Shown here: one piece after another, positions 1,492 to 8,333 of the stretch
How positions within the stretch are numbered: position 1 is the stretch's first letter
Layout of the letters: each line of letters starts with the position of its first letter
Source of the DNA: an uncultured Ruminococcus sp.
GTDB taxonomy: Bacteria > Bacillota > Clostridia > Oscillospirales > Ruminococcaceae
Length of the DNA stretch: 60,558 nt
Assembly: GCA_902786975.1 (NCBI GenBank)
Contig: CADAES010000013.1
Location: forward strand, 1 to 60,558
Direction of reading: 5' to 3'
Made by a program: the position numbers and the translations under genes
The notes under the pieces: generated by a model
What the model was told of the DNA's origin: nothing
The model's database searches: none
Seen by the model: the letters and a program-made list of their open reading frames with translations, nothing else

Positions 1492-2913
1492 ATGAATAAG
1501 AGAAAAAGTATTGTTTTTAAATACTTTGCATTATGCACAGCAGTAATACTCATAAGCTTCATATGCTTAGGGGCAGTATTACTGCTTGTTTCTTCAAGGT
1601 ATTTCATAGGTGAGAAAAAGAACCTTATGACCAAAAACACCGAGGCTCTTGTTTCGTTCACGAAGGAAAAGCTTGAAAACGACCCTGCCAACTGGAAGGA
1701 TGCCGTTACAACGAGAATGCACGAATACTCCATAAGCAGCAACGCTGATTTTATAATGTGCAACAAGGGCGGGTTCATAATCTACAACACCGCAGAGGAC
1801 TCCGACAGCAGCCCTTCTGTCGTTTCGTCAAAGGGTCTTGAAAAGTTCGGCGAGAAATGCACCTACGATTTCGGTACGCTCGGAGGAACGTTCTCCCAGG
1901 ATCTTCACCTGACGGGGATGAGCTTTGCTGCAAACGGCCCGGGATACTATATGTTTGCATATTCCTCAAAGACCGAGCAGGAAAACTACATGTGGACGAT
2001 ATCCGAGATATTCATTATCTCTATGGTCGGCGTGCTTGCGGTCGCAATGTTCCTTGTGTATATCCTCACTATCAAATTCACCGACCCTATCAAGGAGATA
2101 GCCGAGGTGTCAAAGAAGATAGGCAACGGAGATTTTTCCGTCACCGTTCCCGACTACGATGTTGAGGAGTACGCACAGCTCAGCAGCGCTTTCAACGAAA
2201 TGGCTGCCAGCCTTAAAAACTACGACACGATGAGAAACAGCTTCCTTGCTAACGTTTCTCACGAGCTCAGAACTCCGATGACCTCTATGAGCGGTTTTGT
2301 TGACGGTCTGCTTGACGGAACGATACCGAAGTCGGAGGAAAGGAAGTATCTGAAGATAATCTCCTCAGAGGTCAAGCGTCTTGCAAGGCTCGTGCGAAGC
2401 ATGCTCAACCTTGCCAAGATAGAGGCAGGCGAGCTGAAGCCAAATCTGACGTCGTTCTCTGCTCTTGAACCTATCGTTGACACGCTCGTTACCTTTGAGC
2501 CGAGGATAGACCAGAAGCGTATCGAGATACAGGGTCTTGACGTTGACCGTGTGACGCTCTACGCCGACAACGACCTCGTTCACCAGGTAATGTACAACCT
2601 TATCGAGAACGCAATTAAGTTCGTTGACGAGGACGGATATATAAGGTTCACCTTCACTCCGTCGGGCGATATGACCGTTATCTCTATCAAAAACAGCGGT
2701 GAGGGGCTGAGCGAGGACGAGCTTCCGCTTGTGTTCGACCGATTCTATAAGACGGATAAGTCCAGAGGTCTTGACAAAACAGGCGTCGGACTGGGTCTTA
2801 ATATCGTGCGCTCTATAATCAAGCTGCACGGCGGTAAGATAATGGTGCGAAGCGTCAAAGGCGAGTATACCGAGTTTATCTTTACCCTGCCCAATAAGCC
2901 TACCGACGAATAA
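1492..2913 (+). CDS. Membrane sensor histidine kinase
   Basis: Partner kinase of the preceding response regulator. Two membrane helices (about 11-33 and 169-192) flank an extracellular sensor domain of some 135 residues with no recognised fold. HAMP follows (about 193-245), then HisKA with the phospho-acceptor His near 256 in NVSHELRTPMTSM, and HATPase_c with NLIENAIKF and GVGLGLNIV boxes. The 473-residue length is normal for the class. The ligand is unknown. A strong hairpin terminator follows at 2974. Confidence 0.93.
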   Translation: MNKRKSIVFKYFALCTAVILISFICLGAVLLLVSSRYFIGEKKNLMTKNTEALVSFTKEKLENDPANWKDAVTTRMHEYSISSNADFIMCNKGGFIIYNTAEDSDSSPSVVSSKGLEKFGEKCTYDFGTLGGTFSQDLHLTGMSFAANGPGYYMFAYSSKTEQENYMWTISEIFIISMVGVLAVAMFLVYILTIKFTDPIKEIAEVSKKIGNGDFSVTVPDYDVEEYAQLSSAFNEMAASLKNYDTMRNSFLANVSHELRTPMTSMSGFVDGLLDGTIPKSEERKYLKIISSEVKRLARLVRSMLNLAKIEAGELKPNLTSFSALEPIVDTLVTFEPRIDQKRIEIQGLDVDRVTLYADNDLVHQVMYNLIENAIKFVDEDGYIRFTFTPSGDMTVISIKNSGEGLSEDELPLVFDRFYKTDKSRGLDKTGVGLGLNIVRSIIKLHGGKIMVRSVKGEYTEFIFTLPNKPTDE

Positions 2914-2973
2914 GGTGTTTGCCGAACGAGGATACCCGCCCGGCAGCGAAACACGACCGAACAGTATGAACAA

Positions 2974-3016
2974 AGCCGATGCCTGCTGATTTTTCAGCAA
3001 GTATCGGCTTATTTTA
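2974..3016 (+). terminator. Intrinsic terminator after the two-component operon
   Basis: AGCCGAT...TGCTGA pairs with TCAGCA...ATCGGCT around a TTT loop, followed by T/A-rich sequence. The 29-bp core from GCCTGCTGA to ATCGGCT recurs exactly at 13876-13904, so this hairpin is itself a repeated sequence. It lies against the end of the convergent ABC operon. Confidence 0.8.
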
Positions 3017-3670
3017 TGCATTTACGACCTGTCCGTCGCTTATCTCTATCACCCGTCCGCACTGCTGTGCTATCTCGCTGTCGTGGGTGACGATGATGAC
3101 GGTCTTGTTCTGCTCCCTGTTGAGCTTTTTCAGCAGGCTCATCACCTCCTCGCCCGAGGCTTTGTCGAGGTTTCCCGTAGGCTCGTCGCAGAGTATCACA
3201 TCCGGGTCGTTGATGAGTGCACGGGCGATAGCTGCTCTTTGCTGCTGACCGCCCGAAAGCTCAGAGGGGTAATGCTTTACCCTGTCGGCTATATCAAGTG
3301 CGGTGTAGAGATCGTTTTCGGCTGTTCCTTTTTTCTTGGCGAGCTTTGCTGGGAACATAACATTCTCCTCGGCGGTAAGTTCGGGTATCAGATCGAAAAA
3401 CTGGAACACAAAGCCGATATTTTTGAGTCTAAACTCCGAAAGCTTTGTATCGTTGAGCGTGCTAAGGTCGGTATCATTGTAAAAGACCTTGCCCTCGGTG
3501 GCTTTGTCAAGTCCGCCGAGCAGGTTCAGAAGCGTGCTCTTTCCGCTGCCCGATTTGCCGATTATTGCGACCATTTCGCCGTCGTTTATCGTGATGTCCA
3601 CGCCCGCAAGTGCCGTGACCTTGCCCTCGCCCTTGCCGTAGGTCTTAGTGAGATTCTGCGTTTTTATCAT
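3014..3670 (-). CDS. ABC transporter ATP-binding protein, MacB/LolD/BceA type
   Basis: A 218-residue nucleotide-binding subunit that would power the FtsX-type permease encoded just upstream. Walker A GKSGSGKST is near residue 38, the signature LSGGQQQRAAIARAL near 138, Walker B VILCDEPTGNLD near 160, and the switch His is in VTHD. The start overlaps the stop of the permease gene by 4 bp (ATGA), implying translational coupling and matched amounts. Subunits of this type serve export or mechanotransmission systems rather than nutrient uptake. Confidence 0.95.
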   Translation of the reverse strand: MIKTQNLTKTYGKGEGKVTALAGVDITINDGEMVAIIGKSGSGKSTLLNLLGGLDKATEGKVFYNDTDLSTLNDTKLSEFRLKNIGFVFQFFDLIPELTAEENVMFPAKLAKKKGTAENDLYTALDIADRVKHYPSELSGGQQQRAAIARALINDPDVILCDEPTGNLDKASGEEVMSLLKKLNREQNKTVIIVTHDSEIAQQCGRVIEISDGQVVNA

Positions 3671-6600
3671 CTGCGTTTCCTCCCTCTGCTGATAGAATAT
3701 GCGATGTTGTCGTCAAGCCTTGAGACAGATCTGCGTGTGAGCACAGCAGTAACCGCAAGCATCACTGCGAGCACGATCATAGCCGGTATCAGAACCTTTA
3801 CGACCCACATCTCATCGTTGATAAGATGCACATTTCTCATCTCCTGTGCCTGTGTGTTGAGTGCTGATTGGATCTCGCAATTCTGCTGCAGTGTCAGAAG
3901 CGGATCGGTTTTTAATGATTCTTCAAAGATCTCCAGCATTTTTTTGTAGTTCAAAAGATTTATGTGCTGAACAAGCTTTATAGCCGCAAGCGAAATGCCT
4001 GCCGCTGCGATCGGGATACGGATACTGTCGAGCAAAAGCCTTCGCCTCAGTTTTTTCAGCGGTGTGCCTATCGCCCTCATCACACTCAGCTGGTACTCCT
4101 TCATTCGTATCTTCATGCCAATACCGTTGAAATACGCCGCAAAGCCGAGCAGCGACATAAGAACGATCATCAGTGCGGTCGAACCGAACTGTGTGAGCTT
4201 GGCGATCCGGAGCTTTCGCTTTTCCTGCGTGTAAGACAAAAGCTGCATATTTGCATTCATCGGGATAAGACCGCCATCAAGCCTGACCTTTGAAAAGATC
4301 TCCGTGTAGACTGCATCGTTCAGACCCAAAGCCCTTGCTCCGTCAGCAGTTGTCAGCAGACAATGGTTTATCGCCGGTTTGTCGGGACTGCTTATCAACC
4401 CTCCGAGCACACAGTATCTCAGCACCCTTTCGGCATCGTCGGGCAGACAGACCACCGCACCTATCGTTGTCTTTTTGTCGGTGATGCACTTTATGTATTC
4501 GGTCTGCGAGGCTGTGTCAGTGCCCTGCGCGCTTCCTACGGTTATGCTGTCGCCTGCTTTGAACGGACTGTCCGATCTTGTTACGAATACTGCCTGTTCA
4601 CCTTTAGCTATCCTTTCGGTATCTATCTTTCCCGATACAACATATTGAGAAAGCATCTCTATCGTCTTTTTGTCCGCAAGCTTTGTCTGTACAGCGAACA
4701 GATATCTGTTCTTTTGCAGATATTCCTTTGCCTGCGGCGTGATATGCTGCATCAGTGCCTCGGTCTCCTGCTGTGTACCGAGAACTATCTGACCGGGCAG
4801 AGTGGTATCCTTGTCGCCGACTATAAATGTGTTGTTTACCGTTCCCGTTGACATAGCGTCAAGCTTATCGGCTGTTTCGTCGGTCGTTCCGTTTATATGA
4901 CTGCTTGGCTGAGAGATAAACAGATCGCCGAAGCCGTATCCCGACGCAGATGCCGTTGAATAATACTCCTCCAGTCCGTCATCTTCAAAGGTCAGACCTT
5001 CGCTGAAGCTGTCAATTATATCCGGCTGTCGGTCTACACCGTCCATCAGCCACGACTTTCCCCGGTCGGTGAAGATAATATATCCGAACAGCGTCGCAAA
5101 ACAGATAAGCGATAGTGCCATGACCTGAATAACGGTAACGGTGCGGCTGCGAAATACCTTAGCAAAGCATCTGAACAGGGAAGCTGCTTTTCCCCTCCTT
5201 CTGCTTTGTCGTGTAAGCTTTGACAGCAGTGCTGTGAAAAGGTAACCCACAGGCAGGATAAGCACCGAAAAGGCTATCGCTGCGAAAAACGGGTCTGCTG
5301 TATAATCCGTGACCAGTCTGTCTGATGTCAGACCCGAATAAGGCGTCTGTTCAAGTGCATTTACTTCAAACGAGTATATACCTATGTATGCTCCGACACC
5401 GAGTGCTGTTCCTATCAATGTCTGAACAGCGGAAAGGATAATGCACTCTATGGCGTACATAACATTCAGTCTTCGCCTTGACAGTCCGATGCGGCGAAGC
5501 ATCTGCAGGGTCGATCGTCTTTCAATGAATATGTTTCTTGTTACTGCTATCACAGACAGAACAGCTATAATCACAGCGATCCCCGAGAAAATGTAAGCTT
5601 TAAGTCTTTCCGGTGTGCGATAGACCATAGACTGTTCAAGCCACCCTTCCTCTTCTCCGCAGCCGCTTGACATATACGGTTCATTTGCCTCGTCGATCTC
5701 GTCAGACTTATATTTATAGATCAGATCAGCCAGACCGTCTTCCCAGCCGATACAAGCATTTCTTATCATCGTAAATGAATAGATCGGCGTTTTATCCAAA
5801 GGTGTAAGGTATACAAGAGGCAGGGCAAATCTCAGCTCGAAGTCCGCAGGCTTGCCGTAGCCGTTGGCAGTCGGTCGCTGCGTGCCGTAGATCTCGGAAA
5901 TGATGCCGCTGAGCCTGAATGTTCCGATGTCAAGTGTTATGTGGTCTCCGACCTTGCCTGCATAGCCCATTTCTTTCAGGACGCTTTTTTCTATCGCTAT
6001 CTCATCGCTGCTTTCGGGTAATCTGCCGCTGTCAAACGGGATATGTGCAAGTCCGTACCCATCGTCTAAAGCACCGTATTCAAACTCTCTGTCTCCTGCC
6101 TTTATTCTGCCGTATATATTTATCTTTCCGAGCTGTGTCTTGTCATCGCAGATCTTTGAAAGCAGCTCGTCCGAAGCCTGCGGTATCGCATACTGGTACC
6201 TGCCCCAGTGATCGTATTCCCTGTGAAGCGATCTGTTGAAAGATGCTCTTATCATCAGAAACGCACAGCAAACAACAGCACACAGCAGCACTCCCGAGAA
6301 CAGCAGCGCTGCAAGGCTCTTTTTATGCCTGCGCCAGTATTTGAACGTAAAGCGTGTAAGCTCCTTTGCAGTCCCGCCGCTGAGCCTGCTCAGTGCCACG
6401 GGAACACCGACTGCCGCGGCACCTACCGCCGCAGCCGTCCCCACAGCCGCACCCGACAAAAGCCCCGCACCTTCGAGATTTGCCAGCACCGCACTCAACG
6501 GTACAGCCGAAAACAGCCTGCCCTTTTCGGTCAGCTTTTCTATCTGCTTTTTTATCTTTTTGCGAGCCGAAAAAAGCTTTTGCTTGGCGTTGTTCGGGTT

Positions 6601-7077
6601 CGTTCCGATGACCTCGGCGACCTCGCCCACCGACAGCCCGTCGTAATAGTACAGTATCACCGCAGAGCGCATATCGGTCGGCAGAGAGTTTATCACCGCA
6701 CGCAGCTGCTCCCTTGTCTGTGCGTTTATCGCATAGTCGTCGGGCAGCATCAGCGGCTCGGAAAGCGCCGCAATCCCGGCGGTCTGTTCAAGCTGCTTTC
6801 TGTCGAGCGTCAGCTTTTTGACGTGGTCGGAACACTTGTGATAGGCTATGCAATACAGCCACCCGACAAACGATTCCTCCGAGCGCAGCGTGCTGATGTT
6901 TTCCATCGCCAGCGTGAATGTTTCCGCCGTGATATCCTCCGCAGCGTCCGCATCGCCCGTGTTCTGCTTTGCAAAGTAGTACACCTTTGCGTAAAATTCC
7001 CTGTACAGCTTTTCAAACGCCTCTTTATCGCCGTTTTTTGCCTTTGCCGCATATGCGGATATATCATTCTTGTTCAT
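3667..7077 (-). CDS. ECF sigma factor fused to a two-half FtsX/MacB-type ABC permease
   Basis: One uninterrupted 1136-residue frame. Residues about 8-90 form sigma region 2 (AEDITAETF, GWLYCIAYHKC); about 118-180 form sigma region 4 with the helix-turn-helix LSVGEVAEVIGTNPNNAK. An Ala/Gly-rich hydrophobic stretch (about 190-235) links to a complete permease. Membrane segments lie near 254-275, 496-516, 541-565, 600-625, 645-670, 957-985, 1015-1040 and 1096-1120, with two large extracytoplasmic domains (about 275-495 and 672-955). A normal ECF sigma factor is about 170-190 residues and carries no transporter. The ATPase gene overlaps its 3' end; a 48-residue ORF overlaps its 5' end. Inference: a membrane-tethered sigma factor controlled by, or released from, the transporter. 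A permease that has recruited an inactive sigma domain is the alternative. Confidence 0.88.
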   Translation of the reverse strand: MNKNDISAYAAKAKNGDKEAFEKLYREFYAKVYYFAKQNTGDADAAEDITAETFTLAMENISTLRSEESFVGWLYCIAYHKCSDHVKKLTLDRKQLEQTAGIAALSEPLMLPDDYAINAQTREQLRAVINSLPTDMRSAVILYYYDGLSVGEVAEVIGTNPNNAKQKLFSARKKIKKQIEKLTEKGRLFSAVPLSAVLANLEGAGLLSGAAVGTAAAVGAAAVGVPVALSRLSGGTAKELTRFTFKYWRRHKKSLAALLFSGVLLCAVVCCAFLMIRASFNRSLHREYDHWGRYQYAIPQASDELLSKICDDKTQLGKINIYGRIKAGDREFEYGALDDGYGLAHIPFDSGRLPESSDEIAIEKSVLKEMGYAGKVGDHITLDIGTFRLSGIISEIYGTQRPTANGYGKPADFELRFALPLVYLTPLDKTPIYSFTMIRNACIGWEDGLADLIYKYKSDEIDEANEPYMSSGCGEEEGWLEQSMVYRTPERLKAYIFSGIAVIIAVLSVIAVTRNIFIERRSTLQMLRRIGLSRRRLNVMYAIECIILSAVQTLIGTALGVGAYIGIYSFEVNALEQTPYSGLTSDRLVTDYTADPFFAAIAFSVLILPVGYLFTALLSKLTRQSRRRGKAASLFRCFAKVFRSRTVTVIQVMALSLICFATLFGYIIFTDRGKSWLMDGVDRQPDIIDSFSEGLTFEDDGLEEYYSTASASGYGFGDLFISQPSSHINGTTDETADKLDAMSTGTVNNTFIVGDKDTTLPGQIVLGTQQETEALMQHITPQAKEYLQKNRYLFAVQTKLADKKTIEMLSQYVVSGKIDTERIAKGEQAVFVTRSDSPFKAGDSITVGSAQGTDTASQTEYIKCITDKKTTIGAVVCLPDDAERVLRYCVLGGLISSPDKPAINHCLLTTADGARALGLNDAVYTEIFSKVRLDGGLIPMNANMQLLSYTQEKRKLRIAKLTQFGSTALMIVLMSLLGFAAYFNGIGMKIRMKEYQLSVMRAIGTPLKKLRRRLLLDSIRIPIAAAGISLAAIKLVQHINLLNYKKMLEIFEESLKTDPLLTLQQNCEIQSALNTQAQEMRNVHLINDEMWVVKVLIPAMIVLAVMLAVTAVLTRRSVSRLDDNIAYSISRGRKRR

Positions 7078-7210
7078 CTTTTTCTATCTCCTTCGGTCGT
7101 GAAAAGACCCTCTCGTATACCCGAGCCTCACGCTCGCTGTCCTCGCTATCGGTGTCAAGCTGGGTCAGCAGCCATACGATGAAGCTGTCAACATCAATGT
7201 TCTTGTCCAT
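7064..7210 (-). CDS. Small acidic 48-residue protein upstream of the sigma-permease fusion
   Basis: The frame starts MDKNIDVDSFIVWLL and ends EIEKDEQE. It is rich in Asp/Glu, with no membrane segment and no recognised domain. An AGGGG SD sequence lies just upstream of the ATG, and the stop overlaps the start of the sigma-permease gene by 14 bp, which suggests coupled translation. Its position is where a small regulator of the sigma domain might be expected, but that is inference. No family was recognised. Confidence 0.55.
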   Translation of the reverse strand: MDKNIDVDSFIVWLLTQLDTDSEDSEREARVYERVFSRPKEIEKDEQE

Positions 7211-7367
7211 AGCATACCCCTTTCGTTCAAAGGTCTATGTAATATAGACGAAAACAGCCCGTTTCGGTTAGCGGGTGCGGGAGATTTGAGCGTATAGCAC
7301 AAAACAGAAGCTGTCCGTTTGTTCAAAATGCCCCTGTGCAGACCTGTCCATCAGACAGTCACGGCAG

Positions 7368-7396
7368 AAAAAAGCTCCCCGCAGAAAACGGGGAGC
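7368..7396 (-). terminator. Intrinsic terminator after the epimerase gene
   Basis: On the minus strand GCTCCCC pairs with GGGGAGC around a 9-base loop, followed by six T. It lies 8 bp past the stop of the epimerase gene. The remaining gap up to 7210 holds the presumed promoter of the sigma-permease operon and a 24-bp sequence (7307-7330) that recurs inverted at 13845-13868. Confidence 0.88.
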
Positions 7397-7403
7397 GAAG
7401 CTA

Positions 7404-8333
7404 TTACTTTGTGTTTGACAAATTCCAGCGGAAGGTCGATATCCTTCGAGCCTTGGTGTTGTCGATGTTCCAGTTGTAGAACGTGAACGTCGGGTCGAAA
7501 TACCTGTAATCCGTTCTCATCTGTCCTTTGTTGACAGTCAGTACAACACTTGGGTTTTTCTGAATAACAGCACCGATGCGGTACTTTTTCTTTTCGTAAT
7601 CGATTATCTCCGCTGCAGTGATCGTCCTCGTGTCGCATACGTTGTAAATGCCCTCGTATCTTCCCTCGGGAACGTTCACGATGCCGTTGATAAAATCGAT
7701 AAGATTATAAAGACAGCAGAACGAGAAGCCGTACTCGCCCTCCTTGTAGATATATGCCACGTTTTCCTTTGAATCAAAGACCCTTGTGTGCAGGTTCTGT
7801 GTAAACTCGGCATGATATATCGGTGCGACCCGGGCAATAACAGGTATCGTCCTTGATTTTTTAGTCGCCTTCATCAGCGCCTTTTCACTGTCAAGCTTCA
7901 TATTGGTATAGTTGGAGACGCCCTTGTCGGGGAAGGTCTCCCTGATAGGTTCTCTGCCCTTTTGTATACCGTATACCTGAGTGGTGCTGATAATGATGAC
8001 GCTTGTGCAGCCCGCCTTTACGGCAACATCGTAAAGATACTTGTCGCAAAGCTTGCTCCTTTTCATCTCTGCATCGGTGATGTATGCATCAATGTCGTTA
8101 TCCACCGTGTTCGCAAGATGTACCACTACGTCAATGGCATTGTTGATCAGGAACTGGGATACCGTATTCTTATTTGTGATATCCTCCTGGAGAAATTCAT
8201 AGTTTGGGTTTGTGCCTACAAGATCATTTGTTTTGTTGTCAACACCGAATACTTTATGTTTTTTGTTCAGCAGACTTTCGACAACTGCTTTTCCTATCAT
8301 TCCGCTGGCACCGGTAACAAGAATAGAAGACAT
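7404..8333 (-). CDS. NAD-dependent epimerase/dehydratase (extended SDR)
   Basis: A 309-residue extended short-chain dehydrogenase-like protein. The Rossmann motif is GASGMIG at 8-14, the second strand ends in VFGVDN, and the catalytic Tyr/Lys pair is in YTNMK, with a Ser/Thr triad partner in IIISTTQVYG. Such enzymes oxidise, epimerise or dehydrate nucleotide sugars. The substrate cannot be read from the sequence, and no sugar-nucleotide gene neighbours it. It is monocistronic, with its own promoter and terminator. Confidence 0.85.
   Translation of the reverse strand: MSSILVTGASGMIGKAVVESLLNKKHKVFGVDNKTNDLVGTNPNYEFLQEDITNKNTVSQFLINNAIDVVVHLANTVDNDIDAYITDAEMKRSKLCDKYLYDVAVKAGCTSVIIISTTQVYGIQKGREPIRETFPDKGVSNYTNMKLDSEKALMKATKKSRTIPVIARVAPIYHAEFTQNLHTRVFDSKENVAYIYKEGEYGFSFCCLYNLIDFINGIVNVPEGRYEGIYNVCDTRTITAAEIIDYEKKKYRIGAVIQKNPSVVLTVNKGQMRTDYRYFDPTFTFYNWNIDNTKARRISTFRWNLSNTK

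Follow-up and report, generated by a model that had tools for sequence, protein, structure and literature searches.

The fused gene and its ATPase partner

We analysed a 60,558-nt stretch of DNA (the window; assembly GCA_902786975.1, contig CADAES010000013.1, positions 1 to 60,558) from an uncultured Ruminococcus sp., in which a sigma factor of the extracytoplasmic function (ECF) type is encoded in one frame with an FtsX permease, next to the gene for an ABC (ATP-binding cassette) ATPase. As a rule, ECF sigma factors are under the control of other proteins, and the link from ABC transporters to transcription runs via separate kinases. The fused gene, its parts and the ATPase gene are laid out as follows (TM, transmembrane; dN/dS, ratio of nonsynonymous to synonymous substitution rates):

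3667..7077, minus strand: fused ECF sigma factor-FtsX permease, 1136 aa, a single frame without internal stop
6508..7077, minus strand: ECF sigma domain, residues 1-190, regions 2 and 4 (Pfam; dN/dS about 0.06-0.15)
6349..6507, minus strand: Ala/Gly-rich linker, residues 191-243, weakly hydrophobic (hydropathy and by-eye likeness to sister ECF sigma factors)
6250..6348, minus strand: basic patch KYWRRHKKS and first TM helix (TM1), residues 244-276, where conservation is highest and exchange has its 5' border
3778..6249, minus strand: variable permease body, residues 277-1100, with two predicted large extracellular loops, the other TM helices and the coupling region (pairwise identity, tree conflict)
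3014..3670, minus strand: ABC ATPase, 218 aa, LolD/MacB-like (Pfam, NCBIfam, adjacency in 15 of 15 fused loci)

The preliminary description of this DNA had read the 1136-residue frame as sigma-70 regions 2 and 4 followed by an FtsX permease, with an overlapping ATPase gene, and this reading was borne out by the Pfam matches and by the 4-nt overlap between the start of the ATPase gene and the stop of the permease. Both sigma region models (PF04542 and PF08281) scored over their cut-offs, Sigma70_r2 at residues 24-89 (42.5 bits versus a cut-off of 24) and Sigma70_r4_2 at residues 122-175 (48.7 bits versus 25.7), and residues 1-190 were otherwise matched only by overlapping sigma-70 models. The fused sigma has the layout of ECF (group IV sigma-70) factors, i.e. 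regions 2 and 4 without region 1.1 or 3, matched the NCBIfam sigma70-ECF superfamily with 83 bits (cut-off 42.9) and had SigW as the nearest solved sigma factor by sequence (5wuq, E 7e-17). The FtsX domain (PF02687) was matched at residues 496-597 (34.1 bits versus 25.5) and a permease profile matched YtrF (E 3.8e-6) and LolF (E 2e-4) among solved structures; with an FtsX domain and an adjoining ATPase gene, the protein belongs with the FtsX/MacB-type (type VII) ABC permeases. The ATPase itself matched ABC_tran (121.8 bits versus 25), and its top NCBIfam model was LolD, with 254.5 bits, under the cut-off of 307.75 of that model.

The permease had also been described as complete and two-half. 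Its FtsX domain is clear; Pfam matched no second FtsX stretch in the fused protein and MacB_PCD reached 17.5 bits, under its cut-off of 27, so that the assignment of two halves rests on hydropathy and alignment. No anti-sigma (ZAS) zinc finger was matched by Pfam between sigma and membrane at E values up to 1. The fused protein matched none of the anti-phage defence models of PADLOC; the ATPase matched several (best mad3, 118.7 bits), which we took as generic ABC similarity, and a role in anti-phage defence was set aside.

Distribution of the fusion and its relatives

The search covered 41 relatives, the genus of the window (29 genomes), its family (396 genomes) and two sister genera (7 and 16 genomes). 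It confirmed the sigma-plus-FtsX architecture in 15 distinct fused genes, that of the window included, which are spread over 10 genomes from three genera of a single family: 5 of 29 genomes in the genus of the window, 2 of 7 in g129 and 3 of 16 in g87. The other 14 fused proteins are 40-51% identical to that of the window and match it without an internal stop, and three in-frame fusions are located on one 3.56-Mb contig (G156:C2). A frameshift at the junction, which the preliminary description had advised to look for, was absent, none of the 15 genes being split into two frames. In a phylum sample (398 genomes, E up to 1e-45) and an order sample (394 genomes) the fusion was found in the window's own genome only; at most two candidates per genome were scored in the family, phylum and order searches, so that some may have been missed. 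Taken together, the sequences support that the fusion is genuine and old, with conservation in three genera.

The ATPase gene adjoins the fused gene at all 15 loci and starts within the permease stop at 14 of them (at L045 and L048 the contig ends within the ATPase gene). At L047 the fused gene ends early at its C-terminus, by a frameshift or a real truncation, and the ATPase gene follows 95 nt downstream. Permease relatives without sigma were found as well, two of them close (L054 and L055) and others distant (L056-L060). Among ten sigma-less permeases the ATPase gene lies 0-3 nt from the stop in five (L054, L058a, L059, L129 and L132), 221 nt on in L056 and past a second permease in L058b; none was found alongside L055, L057 and L060. 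A split form, encoded at L061 (in the window's own genome) and L062, consists of a sigma with extension (573-580 aa), an FtsX protein (977-991 aa) and an ATPase (221 aa) in adjacent or overlapping genes.

Several further observations were made on these relatives. L136 (G020:C12, about 4960-6400) is a decayed fusion: the microprotein (see below) and sigma region 2 are intact, region 4, the linker and the start of TM1 have been lost by an in-frame deletion, and stops follow further on. Many ECF sigma factors with long C-terminal extensions are present in the same genomes (L006-L020, L037, L042, L061 and L062), and the extensions matched no Pfam family in the nine that were examined. Integrase-like open reading frames (ORFs; recognised by eye from their first residues) lie near two fused loci (L044, 12751-13995; L050, 4058-5254), possibly a sign of mobility. 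Viral contigs, searched with six exact peptide patterns only, contained no relative, and the search of genome contigs gave two weak sigma-only relatives, which were not used.

Constraint on the sigma domain and TM1

The sigma part is under purifying selection. Its dN/dS is 0.06-0.15 in 9 of 11 pairs, although several of these nine have a dS above 1, which makes the values rough; of the other two pairs, one has a dN of 0 and one a saturated dS. Pairwise identity in 40-column windows is about 0.50-0.66 over sigma, up to 0.76 over TM1, 0.71-0.74 over the coupling region (residues ~964-1023) and down to 0.16 in the extracellular parts, and of the 57 columns that are invariant within residues 1-245, 43 belong to residues 1-190, among them the motif W73-L-Y-x-I-A-Y. 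A sigma region without conserved residues, which would have spoken against the preliminary description, was hence not seen. Conservation of region 2 and the selection on sigma bear indirectly on its putative binding to core RNA polymerase.

TM1 is conserved to the same extent in the sigma-less permeases L054 and L055. A constraint at the DNA level was considered as the source of this conservation and rejected: the agreement of third positions at identical residues is 0.57 over residues 236-275 in the window versus 0.40-0.66 elsewhere, only slightly higher, and points to constraint that is mostly at the protein level. Recombination may add to the conservation of TM1.

Topology and linker

Type VII ABC permeases have two halves of 4 TM helices, each with an extracellular domain behind its first helix. 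Apart from the linker, hydropathy showed 8 hydrophobic segments in the permease of the window; with the same cut, there were 8 in four, 7 in ten and 6 in one of the 15 fusions. Two long segments, of about 215 and 290 residues (~280-493 and ~675-965), are predicted to be extracellular. The basic patch precedes TM1 and therefore places the N-terminus, and with it sigma, on the cytoplasmic side in the predicted topology. Across the 15 fusions the best 19-residue hydropathy was 1.11-1.88 in the linker versus 2.35-2.94 in TM1, and that of the linker is too weak for a clear membrane span. By eye, the Ala/Gly stretch resembles the stretch that follows sigma in sister ECF factors (...AVGVP...), where it may be a real membrane helix, and the fusion may thus have turned an anchor into a linker.

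Exchange of permease bodies

The fusion is also a mosaic, in which promoter, microprotein, sigma, linker, TM1 and ATPase are constant and the permease body has been swapped between lineages. In one genome, for instance, two fused proteins (L049 and L068) have 100% identical sigma parts and body segments that are 24-67% identical, and L053 and L070 are 96-99% identical over region 4 and the linker and 12-48% over the body. The converse, a body closer than sigma, was found for L043 and L048 (body 75-96%, sigma 75-78%) and for L045 and L044 (body 60-92%, sigma 63-68%). The window and L043 also fit exchange, with ATPases that are 92.6% identical, sigma 73-78% and body 19-68%.

At the DNA level, identity ends at the close of the TM1 codons and resumes in the last codons before the ATPase gene. 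L053 and L130 (the L070 locus) share 93.0% identity over the 2424 nt up to +807, counted from the sigma start, and 93.7% over the 2112 nt that begin at the permease end, so that the body between must have been replaced where it stood. For L049 and L128 (the L068 locus), identity is 97.6% between -397 and +801. The 3' alignment of L044 and L047 was uninformative, L047 being cut short.

The sigma tree follows the genera, whereas the body tree mixes them and places the sigma-less L054 and L055 among the fused bodies. Approximately unbiased (AU) tests rejected the sigma groupings when applied to the body tree, with p at or below 2.5e-8 in each of four tests, and likewise the body groupings when applied to the sigma tree, with p values of 0.0445, 5.7e-13 and 7.8e-6; the groups had been chosen after the identity table was seen, and one of the seven tests (p 0.0445) is marginal. 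That the body merely evolves faster was ruled out by the two-way conflict of the trees and by the pairs in which the body is closer than sigma. No sign of programmed switching of bodies was seen in the compared loci, for which no dedicated test was made.

A conserved microprotein ahead of sigma

Directly upstream of the fused gene, and overlapping it, lies a further small gene:

7064..7210, minus strand: microprotein gene, 48 aa, MDKNIDVDSFIVWLLTQLDTDSEDSEREARVYERVFSRPKEIEKDEQE, overlapping the sigma start by 14 nt

A related ORF is present at all 15 fused loci, with an overlap of 14 nt in 14 of them and of 8 nt in L045. The 42 codons compared between L044 and L047 show 7 synonymous changes and no nonsynonymous one, which means that the microprotein is translated; other pairs do show nonsynonymous changes, and the comparison of the window with L131 was out of register and uninformative. 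By eye, a similar ORF also precedes most of the 18 distinct sister sigma genes that lack an intact FtsX fusion (L020 being unclear), indicating that the microprotein goes with sigma and not with FtsX. It matched no Pfam family at E values up to 5.

Promoter and inverted repeat

Two features were identified upstream of the microprotein gene:

7245..7270, minus strand: candidate ECF-type promoter TAACC-N15-CGTCTA (AAC, 16 nt, CGTC geometry), a unique exact copy with 11 of 11 consensus positions
7296..7325, minus strand: imperfect inverted repeat TGAACAAA-N14-TTTGTGCT, operator-like, a copy of a family-wide motif

ECF promoters have a spacing of AAC, 16 nt and CGTC. The pattern TAACC-N15-CGTCTA occurs in one exact copy in the 2.37-Mb genome, at the locus of the window; as it was derived from the window and its sisters, its presence there is by construction, and the informative part is that there is no other exact copy. 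The upstream DNA was subjected to a shuffle test in 35 rows (15 fused and 20 others, two of these duplicates; two further loci with short upstream DNA were dropped), with a consensus that was picked after some of the tested loci had been viewed. The promoter of the window matched 11 of 11 consensus positions (shuffle p 0.005), and p was 0.05 or less, uncorrected, in 9 of the 18 distinct non-fused sister loci. Matches of 11 of 11 also lie upstream of the sister sigma genes L006, L007, L008, L010 and L011, and in the alignment most fused loci retain the distance between TAA and the -10-like block, although the g129 and g87 loci mostly fail this consensus. The motif suggests that the operon may be autoregulated by its own sigma.

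The inverted repeat differs by 2 mismatches from TGCACAAA-N14-TTTGTGCA, which at up to 2 mismatches occurs at 19 places in the same genome versus 0 for the reversed control. This 8-14-8 repeat was found in 119 of 247 family genomes at up to 1 mismatch, with the reversed control near zero. An operator specific to the fused sigma was ruled out, since the repeat is present before many unrelated genes. The genes that it adjoins vary (e.g. the ECF-like L108 and, by eye, the MiaB-like L100 and L106), and in L060 (G234) it was also seen, by eye, upstream of a sigma-less permease. No Rfam family reached its gathering score in nine loci, and the matches in window positions 2900-7600 were weak and chance-like; an RNA leader or riboswitch was set aside, as the upstream conservation better fits a promoter and a DNA inverted repeat.

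Neighbouring genes

An OmpR-type response regulator and a HAMP histidine kinase (Pfam) are encoded as a pair at positions 751-2913 of the window, on the opposite strand and convergent with the ATPase gene. In the preliminary description this two-component system had been taken to make a Bce-like defence or peptide-response module plausible. Such a pair was found near 1 of the 15 fused loci only, that of the window, within at most 6 kb upstream and 4 kb downstream (at 8 of the 15 loci less than 4 kb of downstream DNA was available), and at L047 a pair lies farther away, beside a transporter of its own. The two-component system does not belong to the fusion module. A GroES-like ORF (by eye) is found at positions 46-318, on the minus strand.

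Comparison with known systems

With MacB, LolCDE and FtsEX (type VII ABC) the fusion shares the FtsX domain, the YtrF/LolF profile matches and the LolD/MacB-like ATPase; it differs in carrying two predicted halves in one chain with a sigma head. To our knowledge no sigma domain occurs in these mechanotransmitters. BceB has 10 TM helices and one large extracellular loop or domain, whereas the hydropathy of the fusion points to two large loops outside the cell and to no more than 8 strong TM segments. The output also differs, being a separate histidine kinase and response regulator in BceAB-BceRS and a sigma in the same chain in the fusion. What the two would have in common is that the conformational cycling of the transporter is thought to drive induction of its own operon (flux sensing; accessible part of PMC10314905). 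The likeness to Bce is thus by analogy only, in logic and not in architecture; with these loops and TM segments and no dedicated kinase/regulator pair, the fusion is not a Bce module.

Among ECF groups, as described in the accessible parts of the review PMC8999054, ECF262 (Ruminococcus albus) would be the likeliest known one for the fused sigma. It is classed there 'with regulatory extensions - others' (table 2) and shares a long C-terminal extension and the lack of a known anti-sigma factor; it differs in that these parts mention no FtsX fusion. IutY (ECF243), SCO4117 (ECF52), ECF48 and ECF53 resemble the fusion in that their own C-terminal extension tethers sigma to the membrane, and IutY is a fused sigma/anti-sigma protein for which regulated proteolysis was reported (same source). 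In these proteins the extension consists of an anti-sigma region and one or two membrane helices; in the fusion a transporter takes this place, with an ATPase as its partner, and Pfam matched no anti-sigma zinc finger. The literature searched, in which subscription papers were thinly covered and the main ECF classification paper was missing, contained no report of an ECF-FtsX fusion, and PMC8103513, in its accessible part, names no permease.

A proposed mechanism and its alternatives

Computed directly were the fusion and its conservation, the conservation of the microprotein, the promoter-like motif, the purifying selection and the exchange of bodies; the topology, the activity of sigma, autoregulation, coupling to the ATPase cycle, the ligand and the role of the microprotein are what we infer. 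We propose that the operon would yield the microprotein, the ATPase and a two-half FtsX/MacB/LolCE-type permease that carries sigma on its cytoplasmic N-terminus. A ligand, judging by the class of transporter probably antimicrobial or envelope-active, would be met by the variable parts outside the cell, and ligand-driven conformational cycling would free or expose sigma through the constant TM1 and linker. Sigma would then direct RNA polymerase to the promoter of its own operon, giving more transporter in a positive loop, with the translationally coupled microprotein as the likeliest brake or chaperone on sigma. Homologous recombination would replace the permease body and keep sigma, promoter, TM1 and ATPase, which would provide a new receptor part. 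A membrane-tethered, self-inducing sigma factor with the transporter as its sensor is in our opinion the best reading of the locus, and we see it as evenly balanced between right and wrong.

Several points weigh against it. Sister systems keep sigma and FtsX separate and the close permeases L054 and L055 have no sigma, so that the permease need not have one. At up to 1 mismatch the promoter motif occurs at 9 genomic places versus 33 for the reversed control, i.e. it is rarer than the control, and the motif counts give no hint of a regulon beyond the own promoter. The shuffle p was 0.05 or less, uncorrected, in 6 of the 15 fused loci, those of g129 and g87 mostly failing. The ligand is suggested by the transporter class only and transport is putative; the topology and contacts of the sigma-permease are guesses, and sigma or the first loop would come to lie on the wrong side if the Ala/Gly stretch really crossed the membrane.

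Other explanations of the fusion have to be weighed against the same data. Sigma might be inactive until a protease cuts the linker or TM1 (regulated proteolysis). Such freeing was proposed for tethered ECF factors with membrane extensions (IutY, ECF52; PMC8999054, accessible parts) and an Ala/Gly-rich linker and a nearly invariant TM1 are as a protease site might be, but no protease gene was recognised among the listed neighbours in the operon (no search was aimed at proteases), a cut in TM1 would destroy the transporter, and the equal conservation of TM1 in L054 and L055 indicates that it is not conserved for the release of sigma; we regard cleavage as possible but rather doubtful. We think it unlikely that the microprotein instead of the transporter controls sigma, as anti-sigma or co-factor, with the permease as a mere membrane anchor. 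This would fit its conservation with the sigma module and not with FtsX, its occurrence before most of the FtsX-less sister sigmas and the gene overlap, which couples its output to that of sigma, yet no anti-sigma fold is apparent from its sequence (no Pfam family) and the retention of a whole transporter and ATPase with sigma would be left unexplained.

That the sigma domain is a mere remnant, or serves an ordinary exporter as a structural part only, could be argued from L054, L055 and the one decayed fused gene, L136; since sigma is better conserved than the permease, with a low dN/dS, and promoter, microprotein and sigma are kept together in a constant frame, we hold this to be very unlikely. 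An artefact hardly deserves any credence: most genomes compared are draft assemblies, but 15 independent in-frame fusions in 10 genomes, three of them on a single contig, rule out a frameshift, misassembly, chimeric contig or chance joining. For the tethered, self-inducing sigma factor, the exchange of bodies leads to a wider proposal, namely a family of modular receptors, each a transporter that is its own sigma factor, into which homologous recombination at TM1 and the permease tail would plug new bodies, including those of sigma-less copies in the same family; this we advance tentatively, with a little less than even confidence.

Implications

The preliminary description included neither the microprotein nor the promoter nor the exchange of bodies. 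Extended, tethered ECF factors and self-sensing transporters are both known; their joining and the exchange of bodies are new in that we have not seen them described. A single chain that joins both would be the shortest route from the state of a transporter to RNA polymerase known to us, and it makes testable whether a tethered sigma starts transcription and whether the transport cycle drives it. With its exchanged bodies on one sigma head, the family offers a natural domain-swap experiment and possibly sensors for engineering. If the proposal is true, these bacteria would give a fixed transcriptional switch something else to sense, with no need to evolve another switch, and its output would stay private.

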